50,678 nt of DNA from Armatimonadota bacterium. GTDB lineage: Bacteria; Armatimonadota; UBA5829. Position numbers and translations under genes: made by a program. The stretch spans positions 1 through 50,678 of the forward strand of contig JARYME010000008.1 of NCBI GenBank assembly GCA_029907315.1, in the 5' to 3' direction. Shown one piece after another: positions 21,508 to 44,547 of this stretch. The notes under the pieces are model-generated. The model was not told where the DNA came from. It saw nothing but the letters and a program-made list of their open reading frames with translations, and made no database searches. Numbering within the stretch: position 1 is the first letter of the stretch; every line of letters begins with the position of its first letter.

Positions 21508-22490
21508 CGTCCAAAAAGATCGCCCTTGTTTTTCCGGGGCAAGGGTCGCAAGAGGTTGGAATGGGTAGAAGTCTTGCTGAGAACAGCCCCGCCGCAGCGG
21601 CATTGTTCGCCAGAGCCGACGAAGTGCTGGGCTGCGGGATATCGAAGCTGTGTTGGGAGGGACCGGAGGAGGACCTTAGACAAACTATCAATACCCAGCC
21701 GGCTATCTATGCCACGTCCTGTGCAGCCCTTGTTGCTTTGTACGGTTCGACAGGTTCCAGCAGCGCAATTGAATCGCCGCTGCTGGAGGAAGACGCTCGG
21801 CGAAACGTGCTTTTCACAGCCGGGCACAGCGTGGGCGAATATGCAGCTCTGTTCGCGGCAGGTGCATTCTCATTTGAGGTCGGATTAAGGCTCGTACGCA
21901 CCCGAGCAGAACTGATGCAGAAAGCCGCAGAGGAGCACCCCGGCACCATGGCAGCAGTATTAGGTCTGTCTCCCGAACAAGTCAACGAAGTAGTGCGCAG
22001 GGCATCCGACGCCGGAACAATTGTTGCCGCCAATTTCAACAGCCCTATGCAAACGGTTATCTCGGGTGAACACGCCGCAATAGAGCGAGCATCCGAAATC
22101 GCGAAAGAGATGGGTGCAAAGCGCGTGGTACCATTGAATGTCGCTGGTGCTTTTCACTCGCCTCTTATGGCATCGGCAGCCGAAGATCTCGCGCACGTGC
22201 TTCAGTCGGTAGAGATTCGAGACACGGTCGTCCCCGTGGTTGCAAACTTTACAGCTGAAGCCCAGAGCTTAGCACACCAAATCCGAGAGAACCTTTCTAA
22301 GCAGATCACAGGCAGCGTACGCTGGACGGAGTCGGTACAGCGCATGCTTGACTCAGGGGTGGAAGCATTTATAGAATTAGGGGCAGGTAATGTGTTGGCA
22401 GGTCTTATCAAGCGCATCGCGCCTGCCGCTGAGGTGTACTCGGTAGGCGACAAGGCATCAGTCGATGCGCTTTTGAGTTTACAGGGTTGA
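21495..22490 (+). CDS. fabD: Malonyl-CoA-ACP transacylase
   Basis: 331 residues. It loads malonyl groups on ACP. Motifs: [12 protein letters not shown], the nucleophile elbow GHSVGEY with S112, and AFHSPLM with the active His. The start at 21495 lies inside the end of fabH and follows GGGGGTGAT, a strong ribosome site. It leaves five bases before fabG. Confidence 0.95.
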
Positions 22491-29411: not shown

Positions 29412-30719
29412 TTGTGCGGTATGGGACGCATGCTCAACCGTATTTTCAAGTTTGAAGAGCGCGGAACCACCATCAGAACCGAGGTAGTCGCCGGTCTGAC
29501 TACCTTCATGACGATGGCGTACATTATTTTCGTGAACCCCAACGTGCTTTCCGCACTCGGTATGCCGTTCGAAGCAACTGTAGCCGCGACCTGCATAGGA
29601 GCTGCGGTACCGACTTTGGCCATGGGCCTATACACGAACTACCCCTTCGCGCTTGCCGCAGGTATGGGAATGAACAGTGCTGTCGTCAGCTTCGCGCTTT
29701 CACGAGGCGTATCGTGGCAAACGGCGATGGGAGTGGTGGTGCTTGAGGGTCTTCTGATCTTCCTACTGGTGCTGGTAGGCTTAAGAGAAGCTGTCATGCG
29801 GGCCATTCCGATGAACCTCAAGAGGGCAATAGGTGTCGGTATAGGCCTGCTTATTGCACTGCTCGGTATGGAGAGCGCAGGTTGGATAACCCATCCTGAG
29901 AAAGGACCTATACTCACCTATGGCTCGCTCCACAGTACCAAGACTCTTATCGCCACCACCGGGGTTGTTATCACAGCGGTGCTGATGGCGTGGCGCGTGC
30001 GCGGAGCACTTCTTCTGGGGATCTTCGGGACTACTGCAATCGCGTTCTTGCTAGGTGAAGCGAAGGCCCCGAAGCACTGGCTGGGATTGCCGGACTTCTC
30101 AACATTCGGAAAGGCTGACATACTGAGTGCAGCGTCCCCGGCTTTCGCTGCTGCCGTGTTCTCATTCATGATGGTCGATTTCTTCGACACTATGGGCACG
30201 GTCATAGGAGTCGGCGAACAGGCAGGCTTCGTGCGACCGGATGGACATATGCCCTACCTGAGGCGCGTGCTCTTAGTTGACTCGCTGGCAGCCGCATGGG
30301 GGGCGTTTTGCGGAGCCAGTTCGACTACGACCTACATCGAAAGCGCGGCTGGCGTCGGCGAGGGGGGCAGAACTGGCCTTACCAGTGTGGTGGTTGCGAT
30401 TTTGTTCCTCTTGGCATTGTTTTTCGCACCGGTTGTCGGGATGGTTCCAGCAATCGCAACAGCGCCTGTGCTCATAATAGTCGGGTTCCTATTGATGTCG
30501 CTCGTGAGGGAAATATCGTTCGACGACTTTGAAGAGGCTTTCCCCGCGTTTCTGACAATGATAGTGATGCCGCTGACGCTTTCCATCTCTCACGGGATCG
30601 GCTACGGCTTCATCGCTTACACTCTGATCAAACTTCTGCGCGGCAAACTGCGGCAAATACACCCCATTATGGCTGCGATAGCGGTCGTTTTCGCGATAAC
30701 ATTTGCCATTCAGGGCTAG
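29412..30719 (+). CDS. NCS2/AzgA-family purine permease
   Basis: 435 residues with about 12-14 hydrophobic segments. The N-terminal FEERGTTIRTEVVAGLTTFMTMAYIIFVNP is characteristic of the AzgA/PbuG (adenine, guanine, hypoxanthine) branch, as is MMVDFFDTMGTVIGVG in the middle and GASSTTTYIESAAGV. It imports purines by proton symport in the inner membrane. Start unclear: TTG 29412 has AGGA seven bases upstream, ATG 29421 and ATG 29430 are in frame. Its place after apt fits adenine uptake and salvage. Confidence 0.9.
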   Translation: MCGMGRMLNRIFKFEERGTTIRTEVVAGLTTFMTMAYIIFVNPNVLSALGMPFEATVAATCIGAAVPTLAMGLYTNYPFALAAGMGMNSAVVSFALSRGVSWQTAMGVVVLEGLLIFLLVLVGLREAVMRAIPMNLKRAIGVGIGLLIALLGMESAGWITHPEKGPILTYGSLHSTKTLIATTGVVITAVLMAWRVRGALLLGIFGTTAIAFLLGEAKAPKHWLGLPDFSTFGKADILSAASPAFAAAVFSFMMVDFFDTMGTVIGVGEQAGFVRPDGHMPYLRRVLLVDSLAAAWGAFCGASSTTTYIESAAGVGEGGRTGLTSVVVAILFLLALFFAPVVGMVPAIATAPVLIIVGFLLMSLVREISFDDFEEAFPAFLTMIVMPLTLSISHGIGYGFIAYTLIKLLRGKLRQIHPIMAAIAVVFAITFAIQG

Positions 30720-31164: not shown

Positions 31165-32508
31165 TTGAGGTTCCTTGTAATAGTCTTTACCGCAACAGTG
31201 TTGTGTGCGGCTTGCGTTCAGGCTCAGGATGCGGCTCCTGCTGTGCAGGAAAAACTTACACTTGACCGAGCCTTGGAAATAGCCTTTCAGCGGAATCCAG
31301 ATTTGCGATCGGCGGTTGCACAGCTAGAAAAGTCCAAGGGCGGTTTGAGAGAAGCGCGAGCCAATTTCAATCCCAAATTCACCGCCGAAGTAACGCACCT
31401 CCGCCAAGGTCCGCAGGTGAGCTTTGTCGTCCCTGGGGGACCGCGCGTGAACATAATTCAAGAACACAACACGACTGCGGTCGTCAGCTTCCTCCTGCCC
31501 ATCGATGTATCGAAAAAACTCTCTTACGTTTCGGACATAGCAAAGTATCAATTTCAACTAGACTATCTATCTCTTCTTGCGGCATCGCAAAAGCTTATTT
31601 ACGATGTGAAGAATGCTTACTACGATTTATTGCGAGCGCAGGCTCAGAAGGAGGTTGCGCGTAAAGCAGTCGAAGCTGCAAAGGCTCGCCTCAAAGACGC
31701 CAACGCCCGTTATTCAGCAGGCACTGCGCCGAAGTTTGATGTTATGCGCGCCGAAGTCGACGTAGCTAATTTCAATCAACAGTTGATTCGTGCTCAATCG
31801 AGAGTTGCGATGGCGCGGGCCGCATTCAATAAGGTCTTGGGATTGGACGTAAATGCTCCTACGGAAGTTGCCCCGATAGATGTGCCCGCAGACCAATCGC
31901 AGCCGAGTCCTGACTTCGACCAAGCGCTTGAGGAAGCCTACTCGAAGCGCCCCGAGATCAAGACAGGCGAGACGGCGTTTGAGCTTGCCAAGAAGAACGT
32001 AAAACTGCAGCGCACCGGCATTTTGCCCACACTCGCAGCCACCGCGAACTACAACTACAACTTCCGAGTTTCGGGGTTCAGTACGTCGAACGAATCGTGG
32101 ACGGCTCTCTTGAATTTGAGCGTGCCGATATGGGACGGCGGCGTCACCAAGGCGAAAGTAGACCAGGCCAACGCCGATGTAGAGAAGTCGGCACAGACGC
32201 TCCAAAACATAAAACTCGCGGTAGCGCTGGACGTCAAGAACGCTACTCTGGCGCTGAACGACGCCTTGAAGAGAATGGCTACAGCGGAACAAAACGTGAA
32301 GCTGGCAGAAGAGGCTCTCCGCCTAGCGAACGTCAGATACAATGCCGGAGTGTCGACAATGGTTGAACTGAGCGATGCAGAACTGGCATTGACGCAGGCT
32401 CGTACAGAATACGTCAACGCTCGGTACGATTACGCGGCAGCAGTTGCGGCACTGGAGAAGGCTACCGGAAATCAGCCCGAGCTGGCTAAGCTCCGTCTGC
32501 TCGAGTAG
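31165..32508 (+). CDS. TolC-family outer membrane efflux protein
   Basis: 447 residues with a signal peptide (hydrophobic FLVIVFTATVLCAACVQA then AQD). Two repeats of the OEP coiled-coil/beta-barrel unit are visible: LTLDRALEIAFQRNPDLRSA...; PDFDQALEEAYSKRPEIKTGE...; the inner helices (KNAYYDLLRAQAQKEVARKAVEAAKARL and LANVRYNAGVSTMVELSDAELAL) are typical of TolC. It forms the outer membrane exit duct for the pump encoded downstream. The start is TTG 31165, eight bases after GGAGG (31152-31156); a GTG at 31156 overlaps that site and is less likely. Confidence 0.9.
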   Translation: MRFLVIVFTATVLCAACVQAQDAAPAVQEKLTLDRALEIAFQRNPDLRSAVAQLEKSKGGLREARANFNPKFTAEVTHLRQGPQVSFVVPGGPRVNIIQEHNTTAVVSFLLPIDVSKKLSYVSDIAKYQFQLDYLSLLAASQKLIYDVKNAYYDLLRAQAQKEVARKAVEAAKARLKDANARYSAGTAPKFDVMRAEVDVANFNQQLIRAQSRVAMARAAFNKVLGLDVNAPTEVAPIDVPADQSQPSPDFDQALEEAYSKRPEIKTGETAFELAKKNVKLQRTGILPTLAATANYNYNFRVSGFSTSNESWTALLNLSVPIWDGGVTKAKVDQANADVEKSAQTLQNIKLAVALDVKNATLALNDALKRMATAEQNVKLAEEALRLANVRYNAGVSTMVELSDAELALTQARTEYVNARYDYAAAVAALEKATGNQPELAKLRLLE

Positions 32509-40445: not shown

Positions 40446-41672
40446 ATGCAACGCAACAGAGACGTAATCATACTTCGTGATCTTGCCAAGCGCTACGCTG
40501 AGATTGCAGCTGATCCCGTGCAGGATGAGAGAAGGAAACTTTGGCGAGACCACAACAGTTTCGTCCCTACAAGAGTACCCATCCTGATCCTTGATTGGCC
40601 CTGCCTACACGAAATCCCTGAGGTCGTAAACCTTCAGTGTAAGGATCCGTTCTATAGGGCCCACGAGCAGCAGCTGAGGCTAAACCTCTTTCACGCTTCT
40701 TGCGGGGATGACCACGTTTTTGAACCCTGGATCACTCAGCGAGCGGCGGTTGTCACGCCTGAGGGTCTATGGGGCCTTCCGATAGGGAGAATCCCCTCGG
40801 ATGTCCCGGGCGGCTCGTGGAAGTTTGACCCTGCGATCAAGGCTCTCGAAGACGCCGACAAGATGTTTGTCCCGAAGCACGTGATCGACGAGGAAGCCAC
40901 CGCCAGTATGGTTGAGCGTTTGCAAGACGCCGTGGGCGACATTCTTGAAGTGAATGTCGATAGGTCGCCTGCCTGGAGTATCTGGGGAGCAGACATCTCG
41001 ACGTATCTTTCGTATCTGCGCGGTCTCGACCAGCTGATGTGGGACATGGTCGACAACCCGCAGTGGCTGCACAAAGTATTGGCGTTTATGCGCGACGGCA
41101 TCCTCAAAGCGCAGGAGGAAGCAGAAAAGGCGGGTGATTGGCAGCTTGCCAATAGTTACAACCAGGCTGTGCCGTATGCACGCGAACTGCCGGATCCGAA
41201 GGCGAATAGCGGGCCAGTAACGAGGGACAAACTTTGGGTGTTTATGGCCGCTCAGGAGTATACGCTCATCTCGCCGGAAATGCACTGGGAGTTTATGCTC
41301 CAGTACCAGCTGCCTATCATATCTAAGTTTGGCCTTTCGGCCTATGGCTGCTGTGAGGATCTGACCAACAAGATAGACATTCTCAGGCGCATTCCGAATC
41401 TGAGAAGAATCGCTGTCACGCCGGTTGCAAATGTCAGGCGGTGTGCCGAACAAATCGGAACCGACTACATATTGTCGTACCGACCCAACCCGGCTGAGAT
41501 GGTGTGCTGCGGGTTCGACCCAAACCATATCCGGCGCGTCCTCAAGAGGGCTCTGGAGGATTCGAAAGGGTGCTTCGTCGACATCACCTTGAAAGACGCG
41601 CAGACGGTCGAGCATCAACCTTGGCGCCTAAAGGAGTGGGTTAAGATAGCAAGAGAAGTGGCGGAGAGCTGA
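40446..41672 (+). CDS. URO-D superfamily protein (second, different subfamily)
   Basis: 408 residues. The pattern resembles a non-haem subfamily of URO-D-like proteins rather than HemE: a C-terminal AYGCCEDLTNKIDILRRIPNLRRIAVTP...GTDYILSYRPNPAEMV and, upstream, WGADISTYLSYLRGLDQLMWDMVDNP. A CC pair in YGCCEDL and the later MVCCGFDPN could be metal or corrinoid-linked sites, but this is inference. It shares the fold, not much sequence, with the first URO-D-like gene at the left end. The ribosome site is weak; GATAAC lies six bases before the ATG. The location next to sugar genes suggests a catabolic or C1-transfer role rather than haem synthesis. Confidence 0.75.
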   Translation: MQRNRDVIILRDLAKRYAEIAADPVQDERRKLWRDHNSFVPTRVPILILDWPCLHEIPEVVNLQCKDPFYRAHEQQLRLNLFHASCGDDHVFEPWITQRAAVVTPEGLWGLPIGRIPSDVPGGSWKFDPAIKALEDADKMFVPKHVIDEEATASMVERLQDAVGDILEVNVDRSPAWSIWGADISTYLSYLRGLDQLMWDMVDNPQWLHKVLAFMRDGILKAQEEAEKAGDWQLANSYNQAVPYARELPDPKANSGPVTRDKLWVFMAAQEYTLISPEMHWEFMLQYQLPIISKFGLSAYGCCEDLTNKIDILRRIPNLRRIAVTPVANVRRCAEQIGTDYILSYRPNPAEMVCCGFDPNHIRRVLKRALEDSKGCFVDITLKDAQTVEHQPWRLKEWVKIAREVAES

Positions 41673-41768
41673 ACAGGCACGAAGCCGTGACTCGGCGGAT
41701 CCAGCCCTCCGCTGACGAGAGCAAGCATTTATTAGTTGTCTCCCCTGGATATAAACTCGCCTCCGCCG

Positions 41769-42095
41769 CTACTGCTCATACGAGACTATGTCTGACGCTG
41801 AGCGTACCAACAGCACCGGCCTCAGGTCTCCGTCGCGCAGCTCTGACGAGCAGATTGCCGTCAGCGCAACTCTATCTCCTACGTTCGGCGGTGTCACCCC
41901 AGACGGCACCAACACCTTCAAGGGTTCGCACTCAGAACCGTCGCTGATCAGGAACCAAGAGGGGTTGGCAGCCGGGTCGCGCTCGGTAATGATGCCCCAC
42001 GTGCGTATCAGCAGACCAATTGTGTTCAGGCCATACCCTCCCCTAACTCCGCGCTGACCCGCGCCAGTTGCCTCGTCGTATTTCCAGTCGCCGCC
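41769..42095 (-). pseudogene. Orphan C-terminal OB-like domain, remnant of a secreted protein
   Basis: Read on the minus strand, 109 codons run from just after a TAA (42096-42098) to TAG (41769-41771) without a usable start codon. The peptide is coherent: GGDWKYDEATGAGQRGV, GGYGLNTIGLLIRTWGI, ...WFLISDGSECEPLKVLVPSG..., VGDRVALTAICSSE..., PVLLVRSASDIVSYEQ. This looks like the OB-fold-type C-terminal module seen at the end of many large secreted proteins of Armatimonadota (from memory, not searched). The expected N-terminal body is absent; the adjacent upstream reading frames do not continue it. It is the main content of the 536-base region between 41672 and 42209, in which I see no other gene. 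It is the tail of a lost gene, or of a gene broken by a frameshift near 42096. Confidence 0.6.
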
Positions 42096-42208
42096 TTATT
42101 CCATTGTTCCGTACGTTTCCCAGTAAAACATACAGTTTGGAGGTTTAAAGGTGAACAGACCGAAAAAACTAAGAGTGCGCCAAGCTAAAAATTGAGGTTG
42201 AGAAGTGT

Positions 42209-44509
42209 TCAGCAAGTTGGGCGCTGCGGCACTTCCATCACGGCTGCTGCTTCCGCCGTGCCATACGCGTGGGGACCATACCCCTTGCCAAGATTGGAGT
42301 TTTCCAGAATACGCTGCCACGACTTTTCCAGAACACGCTTGTGGTTCGGATCGCCGAAAAGGTCCACCGCATTGGCAAGCGCCATTGTTATAACACCGAA
42401 ATGACCGTGGTGGCCAACCTTGGGGCACCCCGTATACTGCCAAGCGCACTTTTCGTCGTCCCACCGGTCCTCAATCAGGTCATCGACCGCCCGCCTGACC
42501 GGTTTGAGAACCCGGTCGTCGCCGGAGAGCCTGTAGTAACGGCAGAGGGCATTGATTCGTATGGCGCTGAGGAACGTAGCCTCACCTTCGTGCTTCTCCC
42601 CTTCGCAGTTGCAGGTTGCATAGCCGGGCCTACGCAGCCAGCCTCCACGCGCAGGATCTTGAAGTGCCAAAACTTGATCTACGAGTGTCCGCGCAGCCAT
42701 TATGTAGCGCGGCTCCCAATCCAGCTCGTATAATGCGCAAAGTGCTATGATAGGCCATCCGTATTCCCTGGCCTCGCATCCACGTCCCGCAAATGGAAAC
42801 TTCCCATCCTCAACAAGTTTGGCGAGGTTGTCGCCGATTTTGTCCAGCGTAAGCCGCACCCACGGATCCCCAGTAACGAAATAATGGTAGACCATCCCTT
42901 GCGTAAAGAGGTGGCTTATGTTGTACGGGTCGAGACAAAGGTAGGGATTGCCACCAGGAACAGGGTTCAGCTCACAGTACAGTTCACGAATTTTTTCCAC
43001 GGGATGAAAACCCCCGACGTGCCCGACACAGTGGGCGTGGACCATACCCGGCCGTATCGGATAGTTATCCCTGATTCCGCGGTTCGTATAGTACCGACAA
43101 ACCTCGTCCAGGAAGTATGCTTTGAGATCTTCGTTTACGTGGTGGATCGTGTCTACTTCGGATGTGTGCCGAGCCGTCACGAAGGCACGGTGATAGGCTG
43201 CCACGTTGCCTGTCCGCGCGTAGTGAATGTACAACTGCCGAGCAGTGTCGTACTCGTTGTTCGCCCAGTTGCATTTTCGCTCGCCAAACCAATCTCCCCA
43301 GTTCATTGCCCCGTAATCGCGTGAGCTTTCGACTGCGTCCAGGTAGCTTTCGAAAGCCTTTGTACTCCACTCGTCGTAGGCTTCCTGGGCAGCTGAGCCG
43401 GCCGGCGCTATGGGACCCCATACGCCTGTCGAAACGGCATACACTGGGTCGGCGGACGGTACGAGCGGCGCGTTTGCATGTTCTGCCAGCTCCACACCGC
43501 TGCATTCAGTATCCAGCCACACCTGCCATCTGCGTGCTTGACCTGTGCGCAACCGGTAACAATCGCCTTCGAAGAGATAATCGTGCTTGTACCAGGGCTG
43601 CATGTGATCAAACGCACCCTGTTGGAAACGAGGCAGCAGACCAACCGACACGCCCTCCTCATATGCTTCGAGGCTCTTAGGCCACTGCTGTCGGAAATCA
43701 CGCAGCGCAAGAGCTACTCTCCCATGTGGGTATTCGACCTCCATCCAACCGGGAGCCTTAGTGCCGCGAACTCCGATATTGTCTATCGTGTAATGCAAAT
43801 CGTCAACTTGAAGGAGTCGCACCTGCCCGGCCGGCAGCCCGACGAACCCCGGCGCGCTTCCTATAGCAACCTTGCTCAGCCCCCCTTGAAGCACCATGTC
43901 TAAAGCGAGCTCTTTCAGCCTCTGGACGACACCGCTTTCAGCGTCCATCACGATAAGAGGCTCGATCATGACTTTGCGTGTGCCGGCAAAAACATGAATC
44001 CATATTCGGAAGCTGAACCATCGCCGTCCCGCGTGATTGCTCATAGATCCTGATACCGCGTAGGTTCTTCTTACAGGCCCGTCGACCTCGACCTCGAAAT
44101 CGGATGTAGTTCCTCGCCAAATTTGGCCCGCGGCGTCGACCGCGCGAAGTGTCAAGCGGAGATCTTGCCCAATCCGTGCTGTGCAATCCGCGCCAGGTTG
44201 GACGGTCGTGTCGATACTTGGAGCACTAGGCTCTTGGGCAACTGAGTCGATTGGGCAGAGGGTGAAAGACTGTGTTTCGCCAGGTGGGGGATCAGCAAGG
44301 AAGTCGAGTAGTACCCAGCGCGCGCTGCCGTCAGGCCACTTCCCAGTGATTTGTACCTGAGCCGGGATCGACCGACCCGCTTGGTCAAATATCGCCAGTT
44401 TCGAACCAGCCGGGATGTCCCCTCGGCGAACTGGTACTCCTCCCGTAACGGGTCTCATACCGGAAGCCCTGCTGATATTGCTGACTCTTATCGGTATTCC
44501 CGAACTCAC
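42209..44509 (-). CDS. YetA/PcRGLX-like rhamnogalacturonan exolyase family protein
   Basis: 766 residues. The N-terminal RIFT-barrel segment has the family's pattern: RPVTGGVPVRRGDIP, LAIFDQAGRSIPAQVQITGKWPDGSARWVLLDF. The middle has YAVSGSMSN and long beta stretches; the C-terminal half is an (alpha/alpha)-toroid-like region with NWGDWFGERKCNWANNEYD, MVHAHCVGHVGGFHP and GEKHEGEATFLSAIRINALCRYYRL. Related proteins are exo-acting rhamnogalacturonan lyases or proteins of unknown function from pectin loci. No signal peptide is visible with this start. GTG 44509 follows GGGAGG by six bases and is preferred to ATG 44539. It diverges from queG. Confidence 0.75.
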   Translation of the reverse strand: MSSGIPIRVSNISRASGMRPVTGGVPVRRGDIPAGSKLAIFDQAGRSIPAQVQITGKWPDGSARWVLLDFLADPPPGETQSFTLCPIDSVAQEPSAPSIDTTVQPGADCTARIGQDLRLTLRAVDAAGQIWRGTTSDFEVEVDGPVRRTYAVSGSMSNHAGRRWFSFRIWIHVFAGTRKVMIEPLIVMDAESGVVQRLKELALDMVLQGGLSKVAIGSAPGFVGLPAGQVRLLQVDDLHYTIDNIGVRGTKAPGWMEVEYPHGRVALALRDFRQQWPKSLEAYEEGVSVGLLPRFQQGAFDHMQPWYKHDYLFEGDCYRLRTGQARRWQVWLDTECSGVELAEHANAPLVPSADPVYAVSTGVWGPIAPAGSAAQEAYDEWSTKAFESYLDAVESSRDYGAMNWGDWFGERKCNWANNEYDTARQLYIHYARTGNVAAYHRAFVTARHTSEVDTIHHVNEDLKAYFLDEVCRYYTNRGIRDNYPIRPGMVHAHCVGHVGGFHPVEKIRELYCELNPVPGGNPYLCLDPYNISHLFTQGMVYHYFVTGDPWVRLTLDKIGDNLAKLVEDGKFPFAGRGCEAREYGWPIIALCALYELDWEPRYIMAARTLVDQVLALQDPARGGWLRRPGYATCNCEGEKHEGEATFLSAIRINALCRYYRLSGDDRVLKPVRRAVDDLIEDRWDDEKCAWQYTGCPKVGHHGHFGVITMALANAVDLFGDPNHKRVLEKSWQRILENSNLGKGYGPHAYGTAEAAAVMEVPQRPTC

Positions 44510-44547
44510 ATTCCACCTCCCGCGGTATCTAAAAATCATCTTAGCGG

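Follow-up and report, generated by a model that had tools for sequence, protein, structure and literature searches.

A startless OB-fold segment between convergent genes of an Armatimonadota bacterium: probable relic of a gene with a tandem C-terminal module

Between two convergent genes of an Armatimonadota bacterium lies a short segment that reads like the end of a conserved protein and has no protein in front of it. What this orphan domain is, and how it came to stand alone, is the question taken up here. The window, that is, the whole stretch of DNA analysed, comprises 50,678 nucleotides (positions 1 to 50,678 of contig JARYME010000008.1). A sequence-only reading of it had offered three origins for the segment: recent loss of an N-terminal part, a frameshift close to 42096, or a cassette-like module that moves between secreted proteins.

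The orphan segment and its fold

The open segment preceded by a stop, for which the sequence-only reading had named no strand, is real and lies on the minus strand (Table 1). Its sense codons run from 42095 to 41772 and are closed by the TAG, while stops interrupt the given frame on the plus strand. The claim that it has no start codon is correct for the first 58 codons and fails from there on: the first in-frame ATG, GTG or TTG is a TTG at codon 59, within the barrel, and seven such codons occur from this point onward.

Table 1. Coordinates of the orphan segment and of the features around it in the window
Feature	Coordinates	Strand	Remarks
Left neighbour	40446..41672	+	408 aa; Pfam match absent; G002 homologue 90% identical
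Spacer, module stop to stop of plus-strand neighbour	41673..41768		no convincing relative in G000, G001, G002
Extra segment relative to G002, ~520 bases	41685..42205		GAAG at both edges; edges ± about ten bases
Orphan OB2 module	41769..42095	-	108 codons + TAG; start codon absent before codon 59
In-frame TAA immediately 5' of orphan module	42096..42098	-	
Upstream A+T-rich stretch	42099..42208	-	G+C 0.40 versus 0.48-0.59 in eight other window spacers
Right neighbour, PcRGLX-like	42209..44539	-	776 aa; G002 homologue 74% identical

The open frame was dropped as evidence by itself. The longest open run within the 536-base spacer that separates the neighbouring genes is 113 codons, and runs of at least 108 codons appear in 610 of 2000 first-order shuffles of this spacer. 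Since equally long runs are so frequent in shuffled sequence, the case for the orphan rests on homology. Its codon-use score, 0.126 per codon, is within the variation among 108-codon pieces cut from window genes (0.156, sd 0.057), and all five alternative frames score negatively. The test is weak, since short pieces of spacer on both sides each have one frame that scores 0.10 to 0.12. Three promoter-like sites lie near the segment where 0.3 are expected, none of them positioned to explain a start. The single Rfam match around the segment (E 0.9) is far below its gathering score, a scan for terminators near the segment found none, and the folding of 42090-42240 on the minus strand (z -0.63) and of 41640-41790 on the plus strand (z -1.85) is unconvincing.

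A protein search, the check that had been advised for this segment, did return homologues. In the bacterium's own genome 39 places match at E <= 1, the orphan itself counted, the best of the others being 53% identical (E 3.9e-25). Against a profile of the family, built from 118 other members with the orphan excluded, the segment scores 112 bits, with the linker motif region GLNNIGLLVRTWG included in the match; no other stop-to-stop frame of at least 20 codons in the window exceeds 6.6 bits.

An AlphaFold2 model of the orphan is an OB-fold barrel (pLDDT 90.4, pTM 0.72). Its structural alignment gave top 50 chains with Z of 9.2-10.6, the best one (Z 10.6) over 83 residues at an rmsd of 2.5; MCM, PriB, SSB and RPA chains, which are OB folds, are among the best. 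From this model we predict with confidence that the orphan adopts an OB fold. Foldseek against the PDB found nothing at E <= 0.001 with the model (best 0.005), a PDB search with the single sequence reached no lower than E 0.78, and neither Pfam nor NCBIfam held a family at E <= 1.

A family of tandem barrels at the ends of varied proteins

The orphan corresponds to OB2, the second of two barrels in a tandem module (OB1-OB2) found at the C-terminus of diverse proteins whose N-termini are hydrophobic, in one class of Armatimonadota. Of the 38 other own-genome places, 32 have a match that ends at most 40 residues from the end of the protein. At least 110 residues precede OB2 in 112 of the 118 relatives, and a held-out half-set profile finds OB1 just upstream of OB2 in 111 of these 112 (E <= 0.001). 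The six relatives with less room are three frames cut by contig edges, C102, L152 and the TAG-split L103. The pair of barrels, modelled from an intact relative (L106), reached a pLDDT of 88.6 and a pTM of 0.83. By a simple hydropathy test, a hydrophobic N-terminal stretch is present in 28 of the 29 own-genome members that have an upstream stop; of 19 window genes picked as likely cytosolic controls, one has it. The orphan lacks two of these family features: it has no OB1 in frame upstream, and no protein body with a hydrophobic N-terminus precedes it. Three relatives (C102, in the own genome, L152 and L175) resemble it in having the second barrel without the first; unlike the orphan, which has neither that nor a start, they keep a hydrophobic N-terminus ahead of OB2.

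Profile searches found 51 OB2 matches at E <= 0.001 in the own genome and 28 to 89 in each of seven other genomes of the class, the figure of 89 coming from 150 of the 164 candidates of G016. A survey of 28 class genomes and 223 other sampled genomes of the phylum, in which at most 19 candidates per genome were scored, so that counts per genome are lower bounds, detected the family at E <= 1e-8 in 24 of the former and in 2 of the latter. The four class genomes with no module at this threshold are G006, G010, G012 and G024; three of them share one genus, and their relatives are rich in modules. The two genomes outside the class have single matches (G161:C466:6680 and G207:C9:57269), in frames of 1268 and 3303 residues. 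The relatives from outside the own genome number 80, that is, 79 named loci from genomes and one from a viral collection; the loci bear mostly Armatimonadetes or Armatimonadota labels, some just "bacterium" and one Abditibacteriota. All 80 were fetched by the conserved motif GxNxIGLL, and the invariance of this motif among them is therefore partly built in. One module-bearing frame, of 899 residues (L165), was found on a contig of 33 kb that is catalogued as viral.

The bodies of the proteins differ widely. When 20 of the 38 own-genome proteins were scanned with Pfam, 16 matched a family at E <= 0.001, two of them (L030, L034) only below the curated cut-off, and four had no match. Among the bodies are two subtilases, a papain-like protease that also has a lectin domain, propellers of the kelch and RCC1 types, a phosphodiester glycosidase and, slightly under the curated cut-off, a nuclease-like domain. 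On contig C96 of the own genome, five module matches lie inside 12 kb (L013, C96:21000-35500), at 22154, 26776 and 29603 on the plus strand and at 30224 and 33773 on the minus strand. Binding of ligands or partners is common among OB folds, and the intact module may have such a role, as an accessory domain outside the cell, while the activity would reside in the varied bodies.

The family shares with OB folds of the RPA14, RMI2, PriB, SSB and MCM type the barrel strands seen in the orphan model and the structural matches listed above; it differs from them in being a C-terminal tandem on proteins with a hydrophobic N-terminus. In sequence the resemblance is faint: RPA14 approaches the OB2 family at E 0.003, the Pfam family RMI2 matches 6 of 54 OB2 members weakly (best E 0.003), and tRNA_anti-codon matches 9 of 44 OB1-OB2 tandems weakly (best E 0.00015), the Pfam matches being below the curated cut-off in the first member of each set, for which the comparison was made. 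OB1 resembles the first ~60 residues of a solved endonuclease/exonuclease/phosphatase-domain protein (E 0.004), and NCBIfam gave five families for the relatives, one member each, with a best E of 0.014.

The site in the window and in the sister species

A profile search for OB1 in every frame of 42061-42500 gave no signal, and neither a protein body nor a start codon for the orphan was found in any frame. An upstream frameshift or exon-like frame was rejected on this ground. The frameshift near 42096 is unsupported, all the more since the next gene is just 113 bases away from the module, and so is the idea that an upstream frame might restore a full gene. The A+T-rich stretch in front of the segment shows no trace of OB1, and G000, G001 and G002 contain no convincing relative of it.

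Both neighbours, of which the left one is presumably uroporphyrinogen-decarboxylase-like, have homologues in the sister species G002 (C5:12891-15176 and C5:15228-16448). These are convergent too, and synteny is kept on both sides; their stops are separated by 33 bases in G002 versus 536 in the window. The intact gene for which a comparison with sister genomes had been advised was looked for in G002 and is absent from this nearly empty site. At E <= 1e-20 the incomplete genome G001 has neither neighbour, and the two neighbours have their best matches far apart or on separate contigs in G019, G028 and G035. With no third genome to polarise it, the comparison fits an insertion here and a deletion in the sister alike.

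In G002 the 33-base spacer folds together with both gene ends into a strong hairpin (L075, z -3.53), which is likely a two-way terminator. When the flanks of the segment in the window are joined, as though such a hairpin had been split, the 39-base version gives z -1.85, and 17% of 2000 random 30-base sequences put in place of the right flank give an equally good fold.

Relic, insertion or living domain

We favour, at a probability of about two in three, reading the segment as a recent gene relic. A module-bearing gene would formerly have occupied the minus strand at this site, having been gained after the split of the two species or else wholly lost in the sister. A deletion would then have removed all of that gene up to the OB1/OB2 linker; the 3' end, which was spared, would now be untranslated and too young to have decayed. 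What is observed is homology to the end of a longer gene whose start and body are gone. We infer the gain of the parent gene, the direction of change relative to the sister and the deletion, since neither a parent gene nor a remnant of its body turned up.

How recent the loss might be can be approached from two sides. In leave-one-out comparisons of full segments, the profile score of the orphan beats those of 84 of the 118 family members, namely 31 of 38 from the own genome and 53 of 80 from outside, the latter being biased upward because they were fetched by the conserved motif. In a simulation of neutral drift with substitutions and indels, the indel rate being assumed to be one tenth of the substitution rate, the frame was still open in only 11% of cases after 0.05 changes per site; with substitutions alone it was open in 35% after 0.1 changes per site, which makes the limit on age a loose one. 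Three flanking genes differ from those of G002 at 56 to 70% of fourfold sites, near saturation. The high family score, together with an open frame that is improbable after modest neutral drift, suggests that the loss of the N-terminal part, as first proposed, is recent, though it is undatable.

Genes of this family do come, go and decay. Between the 38 own modules and 30 of the 44 in G002, 25 reciprocal best matches were found at 70% identity or more, and two further pairs at 54 and 58%. The remaining 11 own modules include C154, which is reciprocal at only 38%, and some of them may pair with the 14 G002 modules outside the comparison. One G002 module gene (L171, G002:C1:50331) has two in-frame stops, whereas its counterpart in the own genome (C5:2094), 82% identical across 166 residues, is open for 620 codons. 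Four places in G016 look broken, by a linker TAG, a lone second barrel, shifted frames and a cut barrel, respectively. At the first of them (L166/L103, G016:C151:18391) a small one-frame protein of OB1 and OB2 is interrupted within the linker by a single TAG in frame, and ~13 kb away, at 31336, stands an OB2 that lacks OB1. Thus other module genes decay in the class as well, which backs the relic.

The orphan resembles the truncated pseudogenes of bacteria in being a 3' gene fragment without start or body, placed in a spacer and absent from the same site in the next species. It departs from them in that its frame is fully open and scores like that of a living member, and in that its parent gene is absent from the searched genomes. 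Several observations count against a relic. The break falls on the domain linker, as an event at the level of the module would also predict, and continued use of the domain could account equally well for the scarcity of decay. Foreign DNA would also be compatible with the A+T-rich stretch at 42099-42208 and with the G+C content of the module, which just 2 of 30 own modules attain, and one relative, L165, is on the viral-collection contig.

The main rival to the relic, which we regard as possible and considerably less probable, is that illegitimate or ectopic recombination placed a fragment consisting of OB2 alone between the convergent genes, either as a moving cassette or as stray DNA from another strain. 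The ~520 extra bases with the 4-base GAAG at either edge, the coincidence of the break with the domain linker and the existence of OB2 without OB1 elsewhere (C102, L152, L175) all speak for such an event, as do several repeats. Near the segment are an 8-base direct repeat (41653-41660 and 42200-42207) and, in the flanks, an inverted pair that is exact over 8 bases (41668-41675 and 42206-42213). The module itself is bounded by an imperfect inverted repeat of 19 bases (74%; 41765-41783 and 42076-42094). The latter was reached by 62 of 2000 shuffles, and a comparable one, at the 5% level, by none of 22 other own modules, so that it is no feature of the family. The edges of the extra segment, however, are no better than those of shuffled sequence, 884 of 2000 shuffles reaching them, and several chance pairs in the region attain the sizes of these repeats. 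None of the short direct or inverted pairs is clearly beyond chance. The 536-base spacer would be too short for a recombinase gene.

A copied cassette should leave its donor behind, and the absence of one therefore counts against insertion, although a foreign donor, or one since lost, is conceivable. The own genome contains no close copy of the orphan (the closest DNA is 74% identical over 101 bases), and near-identical DNA is missing from G000, G001 and G002. In the 28 class genomes, the own one included, the best protein match is 53-55% identical; with none above 55%, donor and parent are equally unfound. Plasmids and phages gave no match at E <= 0.01, viral contigs a weightless match of 10 residues, and a search of genome contigs with the orphan only gave no confirmed match. 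In a tree of 112 OB2 domains, inferred from few alignment columns, the orphan sits in an unresolved fork with no close partner.

That module DNA can pass between genes is suggested by two own-genome paralogues, L025 (C88:34754) and L027 (C162:319), which have ~180 bases of OB2 in common at 90-95% identity; before this patch they are 52-65% identical, over the last codons 67%, and the downstream DNA is unlike. Such an exchange of module DNA favours an insertion; movement of the orphan, which has no near-identical donor, as a cassette between proteins is unproven. A broader version, in which OB2 would be a semi-independent unit, exchanged patchwise between genes for secreted proteins and able to live without OB1, so that the window copy would be a reservoir or leftover outside any gene, seems to us doubtful, and more so than insertion as such.

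It is unlikely that the domain is still made, from a non-standard start, by readthrough of the TAA or by coupling to the upstream frame. The open frame, the gene-like codon use and the high family score would suit a living domain; G016:C151:18391 carries its single in-frame TAG in the same linker, and OB2 proteins without OB1 do occur. Against this, no start codon precedes codon 59, the frame upstream of the TAA contains no OB1, and the sister offers no copy for a test of selection.

Slightly less credit still can be given to a sequencing or assembly error that broke or joined an intact gene. The genome consists of 186 contigs at 97% completeness and is apparently a metagenome assembly. However, a slip at the level of bases would not suffice, with OB1 in no nearby frame and so little room before the next gene; no near-identical copy elsewhere would invite a false join, and both flanks are syntenic with the sister. 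Finally, the notion that the orphan is the detached C-terminus of the PcRGLX-like neighbour, which lies on the same strand with its end just 113 bases away, is close to refuted, the homologues of that gene in G002 and G019 ending without the module.

As a relic the orphan fragment would be ordinary and matters little alone; what it adds is that the family undergoes gain and loss of genes between sister species. More interesting is the OB1-OB2 family, which has no name of its own in Pfam or NCBIfam searches. One open-licence library yielded no text that joins Armatimonadetes with an OB fold or with a secreted domain of unknown function; one article (PMC12419801) mentions Armatimonadota and the OB fold, the family not being the subject in the part consulted. 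For this widespread and probably extracellular double barrel, the finding raises two testable questions: what it binds, and why it has been multiplied in one lineage.
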